Shown: in pieces, positions 5,682-62,332 of the stretch | Layout: each line of letters begins with the position of its first letter | Position numbering within the stretch: the first letter of the stretch is position 1 | Source of the DNA: Veillonella sp. T11011-6 | GTDB taxonomy: Bacteria; Bacillota; Negativicutes; Veillonellales; Veillonellaceae | Direction: 5' to 3' | Length of the DNA stretch: 64,000 nucleotides | Assembly: GCF_002959755.1 (NCBI RefSeq) | Contig: NZ_PPCW01000001.1 | Coordinates: 310,001-374,000 of the forward strand | Program-made: the position numbers and the translations under genes | Notes under the pieces: model-generated | The model's database searches: none | What the model was told of the DNA's origin: nothing | The model's input: only the letters and a program-made list of their open reading frames with translations

Positions 5682-5711
5682 TTGACATATATTTTTACTG
5701 TATGATATTAT
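5682..5711 (+). promoter_or_regulatory. Promoter of the glutamine synthetase leader
   Basis: Seen: TTGACA (5682-5687) followed after 18 bases by TATTAT (5706-5711). A transcript would begin near 5718, well upstream of the start codon at 5809, leaving a leader of about 90 bases that contains the terminator-like hairpin at 5738-5790. Confidence 0.7.
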
Positions 5712-5737
5712 GAGTGCAACAAAATAATTGGTCAACG

Positions 5738-5795
5738 AAGACTCCACTTTAGATATATGGAATATATATCTATTTGTTGGAGTCTTTTTATTTTT
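5738..5795 (+). promoter_or_regulatory. Leader terminator (attenuator) before glutamine synthetase
   Basis: Seen: long hairpin in which AAGACTCCA (5738-5746) pairs with TGGAGTCTT (5778-5786) and an inner arm AGATATAT (5751-5758) pairs with ATATATCT (5764-5771), followed at once by TTTTTATTTTTA and then the AGGAGG site. An intrinsic terminator between promoter and ribosome binding site implies transcription attenuation. A partial alternative pairing exists between 5717-5726 and 5771-5779 which would break the terminator top. The signal it answers to is unknown. Confidence 0.7.
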
Positions 5796-5808
5796 AGGAG
5801 GAACCATT

Positions 5809-7713
5809 ATGACAAATACTAAAGATTTATTGTATTACATTCCAGCAGGTCAATATGGTAAAGAAGGTGTTCTTGCACTATTAGAACAACATCCAGAAAT
5901 TAAATTTGTATCTCTTGTAGGTATTGATTTAGCTGGTAATGATACAGATGAAAAAATTCCTATGGCAGCATTCTTTGATGATTATGAAGCATTCTTCGAA
6001 GGTCGTGCTGTTCAAACAGATGGTTCTTCTGTAGTACTTACAAATATTGCAACATTGAATAATGCACGTGTAGATATGTGGGGCGATCCAAGTGTAAACT
6101 GGTTTGTTGATTATAACTATGAAAATATCGATGAAGCAACAGGTTTACCAACTGGTACACTTCGTATTCCTGCATTCTTGATGCATAACTACCGTTATGT
6201 TGACTCTCGTTCTATCTTAAAAAATAGCTGTGATTATGTTCGTGCAGAACTATTATCCTTGATTAAAGAACATGGTCTACCTGGTATGCCTCATGTGAAA
6301 GCTGATGACGTTGTAGATATTATCTTTACATCTGCTACAGAATTGGAATTCTGGGTAAAAACTCCATCTAGAACTGTTACTAAAAAAGAATTGTCCGTAT
6401 CTCAAAAATTACAAGAACAATACTGGCAACGTACTCATGGTACAGTTCGTACTGCCTTAGAACAAGCAGTTGAACGCTTAGACCAATACGGTATGGTTGC
6501 AGAAATGGGCCATAAAGAAGTAGGTGGCGTTAAAGCTAAACTTGATGAAGATGGTCATGAAGCAGTTGTTTTAGAACAATTAGAAATTGACTGGAAATTC
6601 TCTAATAACCCATTACAAACAGCAGATAATGAATTACAAGCTCGTATTATCGTTCGTGAAGTGTTCCGTGAAAATGGTCTTGATGTAACATTCAATGCAA
6701 AACCTATTATTGGCGTAGCTGGTTCTGGTGAACATACACACTTTGGTGTTATGGCTAAATTGAAATCTGGTAAACTTGTAAACTTGTTCAGCCCAGAAGA
6801 TATGCGTAAAGAATCTGCTAGCTCCTTAGGTATTGGTGCTATCATGGGGTTATTGAAACACTATGAAGCAATCAATCCATTTATCAGTTCTACAACAGAC
6901 TCCTTAAATCGTTTAAAACCTGGCTTCGAAGCTCCTGTATGTATCGTTACATCTTTAGGTACTGATCCTTCCGAACCAAGCCGTAACCGTACAATCCTTT
7001 GTGGTTTGATTCGTGATATCGACAACCCTATGGCTACACGTTATGAATTGCGTTCTCCAAACCCTTACACAAATACATATACTGCATTAGCATTGATCTT
7101 CATCTCTGCATTTGATGGAATGAAATATGCTATTACATCTGGTAAAACACAAGCACAATTAGAAGCAGAGCTTTCCAAAGAAGTGGGTGAATCTGCTGAT
7201 TACCTTGCTACAAATCGTGCATATCGTACAGAAAAAGACGTATTCGATGATTTCACTCAAGAAGAACGTAATCAAATGTTTGGTGTTGCACCAGCCACTG
7301 TATGGGAAAATATTAAAGGTTACCATAACAATCCTGAATTAGTTGAAACATTAGCTCAAGGCAATGCATTCGCTAAAGACTTGATGGATTCCTTCATCGC
7401 ATCTATCTTGAAACGTTGGAAACTTGTATTGGCTCACCGCTTAATTCCTGATAATCTTGATACAGTTCGTAAGATGGTAGCTATTCATACTGATAGCCGT
7501 AATAGTGTAGACGATAAACGTTTTGCAGAAGTTAATGACTTACGTTTCTATCTTGCTAAAGATAGCGATGATCGCAAATCTTTATTCACTCGTTTAATCG
7601 ATGCACTTAATGCTGGTGAATATGACTTAGCATCTCAATTGCAAATTGAAATGAACGATAAAATGGAAGAATTAGAAGGTAAATATTCTAACTATGCAAA
7701 AAATATCTTCTAA
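5809..7713 (+). CDS. Glutamine synthetase, long form
   Basis: Catalyses glutamate + ammonia + ATP to glutamine. 634 residues, longer than the about 440-470 of ordinary GSI; the extra length lies in an extended N-terminal half and a helical C-terminal tail (ending EMNDKMEELEGKYSNYAKNIF-like). Seen: TELEFWVK (metal-binding Glu strand), AGSGEHTHFG (equivalent of the NGSGxHxH loop), RLKPGFEAPVC, PSRNRTI and the ELRSPNPYTNTY active-site segment. Start 5809 chosen because TAGGAGG lies 7-14 bases before it; upstream in-frame codons to 5728 run through the terminator hairpin and are leader. Monocistronic between an attenuated leader and a strong terminator. Confidence 0.9.
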   Translation: MTNTKDLLYYIPAGQYGKEGVLALLEQHPEIKFVSLVGIDLAGNDTDEKIPMAAFFDDYEAFFEGRAVQTDGSSVVLTNIATLNNARVDMWGDPSVNWFVDYNYENIDEATGLPTGTLRIPAFLMHNYRYVDSRSILKNSCDYVRAELLSLIKEHGLPGMPHVKADDVVDIIFTSATELEFWVKTPSRTVTKKELSVSQKLQEQYWQRTHGTVRTALEQAVERLDQYGMVAEMGHKEVGGVKAKLDEDGHEAVVLEQLEIDWKFSNNPLQTADNELQARIIVREVFRENGLDVTFNAKPIIGVAGSGEHTHFGVMAKLKSGKLVNLFSPEDMRKESASSLGIGAIMGLLKHYEAINPFISSTTDSLNRLKPGFEAPVCIVTSLGTDPSEPSRNRTILCGLIRDIDNPMATRYELRSPNPYTNTYTALALIFISAFDGMKYAITSGKTQAQLEAELSKEVGESADYLATNRAYRTEKDVFDDFTQEERNQMFGVAPATVWENIKGYHNNPELVETLAQGNAFAKDLMDSFIASILKRWKLVLAHRLIPDNLDTVRKMVAIHTDSRNSVDDKRFAEVNDLRFYLAKDSDDRKSLFTRLIDALNAGEYDLASQLQIEMNDKMEELEGKYSNYAKNIF

Positions 7714-39546: not shown

Positions 39547-39568
39547 AATAGTATTAAGTGAATATGTT

Positions 39569-39728
39569 GATAGAGGTGCGAGTATAAATAGTAATCATGA
39601 GGAGTAGGCATGCATTGATCCATGATAAAAGGGATGCTTGCCGAAGTTCGGTGATTGCGACTCATCGTTCTGGTTGTCTATTTAATAAATGGACGACTGT
39701 CATCAATTTGAATTGGTGGAGTGCTATC
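39569..39728 (+). ncRNA. Lysine riboswitch (L box)
   Basis: Seen: the closing stem GATAG (39569-39573)/CTATC (39724-39728) and conserved core pieces in order: AGAGGTGCG, AAATAGTAA, GAGGAGTAGGCA, GCTTGCCGAAG, GACTCATCGTTCTGGTTGTC, GACGACTGTCA and GGAGTGCTATC. These match the lysine-sensing element that precedes dap, lysC or lysP genes in Bacillota. It controls dapB-asd-dapA through the terminator at 39771-39798. Confidence 0.9.
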
Positions 39729-39770
39729 ATTGAGCTTTTAGTAACAGTTATAAGCTATATAAACTATAAG

Positions 39771-62184: not shown

Positions 62185-62219
62185 GGGTAATCATAATTGC
62201 GCACAACAAATGTGCCTTG

Positions 62220-62332
62220 TCTTTTCTCATCCAGACTGTACTGTCGGTATCGGAATTGCACCGATTCATACCCATAAGGTTCGCGGACTATACCGCCGGT
62301 AAGGAATTTCACCTGTCCCCAAAGACTCATCT
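62220..62332 (-). ncRNA. FMN riboswitch (RFN element)
   Basis: On the minus strand the conserved blocks appear in order: TCTTTGGGGACAGGTGAAAT, TTCCTTACCGGCGGT, AGTCCGCGA, GAATCGGTGCAATTCCGA, TACCGACAGTACAGTCTGGA and GATGAGAAAAG, the RFN consensus. It senses flavin mononucleotide and, through the terminator at 62158-62184, controls the ribD-ribE-ribBA-ribH operon. Confidence 0.95.

Follow-up and report, generated by a model that had tools for sequence, protein, structure and literature searches.

The glutamine synthetase gene of Veillonella sp. T11011-6 is preceded by a short leader that very probably serves as a transcription attenuator run by the ANTAR-domain protein P0002, probably together with the kinase P0003. 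This assignment, deduced from sequence comparisons, follows from the conservation of a hexaloop hairpin before the gene, the agreement of its loop with the ANTAR consensus, covariation of its stem, its overlap with an intrinsic terminator, its loss along with the ANTAR domain, and the presence of a single EutV-like regulator in the genome. Coordinates given without a prefix are positions in the window, i.e., the whole 64,000-nt stretch of this genome that was analysed. The leader and its gene comprise the following features:

5682–5711, + strand: strong promoter, with TTGACA at 5682–5687, an 18-base spacer, and TG followed by TATTAT at 5706–5711 (extended −10)
5721–5728, + strand: conserved A-rich start of the RNA, AAAATAAT; an alignment of 25 distinct leaders gives an AARATAAT-like form for the family
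5730–5743, + strand: ANTAR P2-type hairpin GGUC-AACGAA-GACU, with the hexaloop at 5734–5739 (A1 at 5734, G4 at 5737)
5737–5796, + strand: intrinsic terminator, composed of a two-part hairpin (5737–5787) and a U-rich tract to 5795
5796–5801, + strand: ribosome binding site AGGAGG, read from the sequence
5809–7713, + strand: glutamine synthetase gene P0001 (634 aa), with the ATG start at 5809 and a Gln-synt_C domain (PF00120)

The PF00120 match confirms the gene call made in an earlier sequence-only reading of this DNA. The V. infantium and V. parvula SKV38 synthetases share 99% and 97% identity, respectively, with P0001, which represents a distant type of glutamine synthetase, scoring below the cut-off of TIGR00653. 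The promoter, the two-part hairpin with its U tract, and the ribosome binding site described in the same reading are all present in the sequence, and its general proposal, that a nitrogen-assimilation gene here has a regulated leader with a terminator, is supported. The promoter agrees with the consensus at 11 of 12 positions, its placement relative to the hairpin is kept in relatives, and transcription would start near 5718. The first transcript bases (AARAUAAU-like) are nearly invariant across the 28 family genomes despite variable spacing to P2.

Within the terminator, the outer stem pairs 5737–5746 with 5778–5787, and the inner stem pairs 5750–5759 with 5763–5772. The hexaloop hairpin (P2) and the outer stem are mutually exclusive, while P2 and the inner stem are compatible. 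Of 200 shuffles of the leader, 197 fold less well than the natural sequence (z −2.6). In stepwise folding of the nascent RNA, transcripts of 26–40 nt form the hexaloop hairpin alone, which is thus the first structure to appear; at 60 nt it is accompanied by the inner terminator stem, and the full terminator is formed from about 66 nt. Such an order is the pattern expected of an antiterminator/terminator switch.

Each of the 28 family genomes, including 14 from the same genus, has the hexaloop hairpin before its synthetase gene. The family leaders share, besides the A-rich 5′ end, the sequence GUCAAYGRNGRC, to which the hairpin belongs. By the strict pattern, it was found before the gene in 30 of 32 other genomes of the order, a count that includes G039, whose only match is at an unrelated site and which was dropped from later counts, as well as in 32 of 39 sampled ANTAR-positive Negativicutes genomes outside the order; the same pattern occurs in 0.3% of shuffled upstream regions. 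Class-wide, the loop reads A (rarely G)-A-N-G-N-N, with G at the first position in G038 and G057, and G4 is invariant in 69 distinct 18-mers, though it was part of the search pattern. When five genomes were searched with a model of the hairpin, the best match was the synthetase leader in every case; other matches that were inspected appear to lie in coding sequence. No such leader hexaloop was seen in the inspected Clostridium, Geosporobacter, and Eubacterium relatives of this synthetase.

The stem of the hairpin covaries. The 69 distinct 18-mers give a covariation score of 0.389, as against 0.124 (sd 0.020) for shuffles, none of 500 being as high, and in slid registers it reaches at most 0.20. 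The closing pairs change in concert, from GUC/GAC to GGC/GCC in several families and to GAUC/GAUC in G109, and the outer pairs vary among A-U, G-C, U-A, and G-U. The search pattern required a compatible middle pair; in a count redone without that demand, this pair is formed in 91 cases versus 12 unpaired. The next pair outward, likewise unselected, is A-U in 26 cases, G-C in 13, U-A in 8, G-U in 4, and C-G in 1, and is unpaired in 17. In 85 of 94 leaders, the 3′ strand of P2 coincides with the 5′ arm of a terminator ending in a T run, compared with 10% for shuffled downstream sequence, and the T run lies 24–56 nt beyond this strand in nearly all leaders. Since the 5′ strand of the hairpin is outside the terminator, the terminator alone cannot explain the covariation.

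The genome of the window strain encodes exactly one ANTAR-domain protein, P0002, a response regulator built of a receiver and an ANTAR domain (PF00072 + PF03861), whose gene adjoins that of the HisKA_2 kinase P0003 near G000:C1:480,000, outside the window. By sequence, the nearest solved structure is EutV (6wsh/6ww6, E 1e-44), the entry being recognized as such from its sequence and residue numbering. In EutV, Y164 stacks on the flipped G4 of the hexaloop, and M172 is essential (PMC8934654). P0002 keeps R142, K143, K147, E160, Y164, M172, and R175 of EutV (numbering of PMC8934654), and it possesses the receiver, the ANTAR domain, the G4-stacking tyrosine (its Y161), and the plug methionine (its M169) of an EutV-type regulator. 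Against the ANTAR reading, K149, N173, and R177 of EutV are replaced by T, K, and S, respectively. The family ANTAR proteins recovered by a pattern keep the tyrosine (phenylalanine in two) and the methionine, though the pattern itself required both.

The hairpin and the ANTAR domain tend to be present or absent together. At least one ANTAR protein is encoded in all 61 genomes of the order, while 35 of 220 class genomes have no detectable ANTAR domain. Among 30 ANTAR-less class genomes with a synthetase gene, 13–15 of which were called ANTAR-less by their absence from the ANTAR table, the strict motif was found in one, versus the 32 of 39 ANTAR-positive genomes outside the order (Fisher 1.4e-11). 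Counted by genus, the motif is present in 26 of 33 ANTAR-positive versus 1 of 9 ANTAR-less genera (p = 4e-4), and within the two families that hold both kinds of genera, in 14 of 17 versus 0 of 6 (p = 8e-4); genus g82, which shows both states and lacks the motif, was placed with the positives in the former test and omitted from the latter. All these are counts by genome or genus, not on a tree. Still, the losses of the motif are spread over several genera, and of all the computational evidence this points most strongly to the ANTAR protein as the factor involved. The sequence-only reading had seen no obvious ANTAR-type hexaloop pair: a pair is indeed absent, but one ANTAR-type hexaloop is present and tracks the ANTAR protein across the class.

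There are exceptions that weigh against the ANTAR reading. One genome, G148 (bin SKW2, 88% complete, 240 contigs), bears the motif with no ANTAR gene found; its synthetase leader (L320) contains a pair of AANG hexaloop hairpins, spaced at 56 nt, of which the latter lies at a second terminator. Conversely, the ANTAR-positive genomes G064, G068, G074, and G211 have no hexaloop at the synthetase leader. None was found in the corresponding leader of Pelosinus fermentans JBW45 (L321) either. Recognizable variants of the hairpin are carried by G109, G136, and G176, and the ANTAR-less genus g63 has a hairpin with an AGCGUU loop, which may reflect decay.

The absence of an upstream hexaloop (P1) also counts against the ANTAR reading, given that EutV needs P1 in vivo. 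Promoter calls were usable in 92 leaders, and the stretch from the −10 element to P2 contains no A1/G4 hexaloop with a stem of 3 bp or more in any of them. In the Megasphaera-family leaders L065, L069, L071, L073–L075, L078, and L080, P2 is preceded by an extra 5′ hairpin of the AUGAUUU/AAGUCAU type with an A-rich loop, which does not qualify as an A1/G4 hexaloop. The distance from the predicted start to the G of the hairpin has a median of 16 nt (13 nt in Veillonella) and shrinks to 0–5 nt in several genomes of family f18 (G117, G090, G209, G165, and G215). Such near-zero distances leave no room for P1 in about a dozen leaders, three of which (order family f4) rest on weak or doubtful promoter calls.

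In the eut leaders, deletion of P1 or an altered linker length strongly lowered induction (PMC3369931). In the EutV–RNA structure, contacts are confined to a single hexaloop, and the minimal binding motif has been redefined as one hexaloop (PMC8934654). P1 was retained in that work as a recruitment hairpin, needed if antitermination is to occur in the limited time that transcription allows, and single-hexaloop sites were expected where polymerase imposes no such limit; why two hexaloops are needed when the dimer grips one was left open (PMC8934654). In the leaders studied here, recruitment by P1 could be replaced by the early emergence of P2 (within the first ~26 nt), by the T run that follows 24–56 nt on, or by the conserved 5′ end. 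On balance, we favour the view that glutamine synthetase is controlled class-wide by ANTAR antitermination at a single 5′-end hexaloop and that P1 is dispensable when P2 emerges first, with the A-rich 5′ end or the timing of the terminator possibly acting as a substitute. The set of about 90 natural terminator-coupled one-hexaloop leaders, some of which apparently start at the hairpin itself, makes the role of P1 directly testable.

The attenuator would probably operate as follows. RNA polymerase would start near 5718, and folding indicates that some 26 nt of transcript suffice for the hairpin GGUC-AACGAA-GACU to form. Left unheld, the hairpin would give way to the outer stem of the terminator, for which the same GACUCC strand is required, and transcription would stop at the U tract. 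The active ANTAR protein, presumably phosphorylated and dimeric by analogy with EutV, would grip the hexaloop via the flipped-out G4; the base of the terminator then could not close, and the synthetase would be made, so that the regulator would work in the “on” direction. P0003 would probably be the kinase that phosphorylates it, and the signal is presumably nitrogen or glutamine. Without the upstream recruitment hexaloop of the described systems, capture would fall to a single hairpin at the very start of the RNA.

Several other explanations of the leader should be considered. An RNA-binding factor other than the ANTAR protein could recognize the hexaloop, which would agree with the absence of P1 and with the ANTAR-positive genomes devoid of the motif; such a factor is unlikely, however, given that the loop letters agree with the ANTAR consensus and that genera without ANTAR have lost the motif. 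The chances of a small-molecule riboswitch or a T-box are slimmer still. The gene context and the candidate riboswitch found before gltD in the same bacteria (PMC8632094) speak in its favour, but the transcript is only ~20–26 nt long by the time the hairpin is complete, too small for a known aptamer, and Rfam gives no match in the leader at the gathering score, with only sub-threshold animal RNA models at E ≤ 10. This search agrees with the sequence-only reading, where no glutamine riboswitch or T-box had been recognized. Elsewhere in the window, Rfam strongly matches a lysine riboswitch aptamer at 39563–39734 (+) and an FMN riboswitch aptamer at 62215–62330 (−). It is scarcely credible that the leader is a plain, unregulated terminator with a chance hairpin. 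In favour of this view are the small size of the hairpin and the fact that the terminator in any case limits variation of the 3′ strand; but the 5′ strand, although outside the terminator, changes along with the 3′ strand, the loop is under constraint throughout the class, and the strict pattern is rare in shuffled upstream regions, as stated above.

Hardly any probability can be assigned to the switch proposed in the sequence-only reading, where 5717–5726 pairs with 5771–5779 and removes the top of the terminator, an alternative fold that would be under some other control. This helix does exist in the letters (nine pairs with one bulged A), and the complementarity is found in the window and its closest relatives, but it decays beyond the closest Veillonella and is not kept in the family. 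No family leader clearly surpasses shuffled 5′ ends in this pairing, the fraction of shuffles as good being 0.07–0.83. Besides, base 5717 would be at or upstream of the probable start (~5718), and in full-length stepwise folds the terminator is preceded by the hexaloop hairpin, not by this helix. The comparison of leaders from relatives, which had been suggested as a check, did reveal a conserved covarying stem, but this turned out to be the overlooked hexaloop hairpin at 5730–5743.

A scan of 2.03 of the 2.05 Mb of the window genome for A..G hexaloops fused to terminators gave seven sites; it required an unbroken six-pair stem and can miss sites. Among the seven, an AANGRR loop before a nitrogen gene occurs only at the synthetase leader. 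One site (L205:3500–3560; G000:C1, about 163,500) is an AAAGUU-loop hairpin fused to a terminator, placed between a TATAAT-like box just upstream and a macrodomain-like gene; it may be a chance occurrence, the terminator of the preceding gene, or a second target. Others were read as ordinary end-of-gene terminators or coding sequence. The synthetase leader is a likely target for the two-component ANTAR pair found in Veillonella and related bacteria, and it offers a compact one-hairpin antiterminator. The one-hexaloop leaders suggest that two-hairpin search models miss such sites and that the two-hairpin rule for ANTAR antitermination sites may not hold here.

As for other nitrogen leaders, ANTAR targets that lie ahead of nitrogen genes in other bacteria, among them glutamine synthetase, have the same kind of gene and the same regulator domain; unlike the Veillonella leader with its one hexaloop, they were found by a two-hexaloop search model (PMC3369931, PMC3369936). 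The earlier description of the leader as undescribed therefore can hold only for the one-hairpin form, as reports of ANTAR targets before glutamine synthetase already exist (PMC3369931, PMC3369936). A literature search of freely readable main texts yielded no earlier report of the one-hairpin motif and no start-site or 3′-end data for Veillonella; synthetase targets are tabulated by Ramesh et al. The gltD riboswitch candidate is also a cis-regulatory leader of nitrogen assimilation in the same bacteria, described with a downstream hairpin that may hide the ribosome binding site (PMC8632094). The leader of a gltD-type gene (L261, minus strand) looks longer than the synthetase leader and unlike it, with no Rfam match; it is probably the candidate of PMC8632094.

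Recognition of one hairpin has precedents in the EutV minimal motif and the EutX sRNA (PMC8934654) and in the light-switched NmPAL (PMC11381354), but EutX sequesters its regulator and the NmPAL hairpins are engineered translation switches, neither being a natural terminator-coupled single site. The closest parallel is EutV/EutW with the eut leaders of Enterococcus faecalis, where a receiver–ANTAR regulator is likewise accompanied by a neighbouring histidine kinase (PMC3369931, PMC8934654). The eut P2 consensus AGCAANGRRGCUY overlaps the terminator (PMC3369931), and both kinds of leader have a P2 hexaloop AANGRR with A1 and G4 that overlaps the 5′ arm of an intrinsic terminator. By contrast, eut combines P1 and P2 through a spacing-sensitive linker, whereas here a lone P2 stands at the 5′ end of the RNA before glutamine synthetase. 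Judged by the dual-hexaloop definition (Ramesh 2012), the leader has the P2 (a stem of at least 3 bp and the hexaloop AACGAA with A1 and G4), its overlap with the 5′ arm of the terminator, and the encoded ANTAR protein, both in the window genome and in the 61 order genomes, but no upstream P1 with A1 and G4; judged by the minimal motif (Walshe 2022), it has the single short-stem hexaloop with G4. Most likely, then, to judge from sequence, the synthetase leader works like the EutV system, fitting the one-hexaloop definition of binding and falling outside the dual-hexaloop one.
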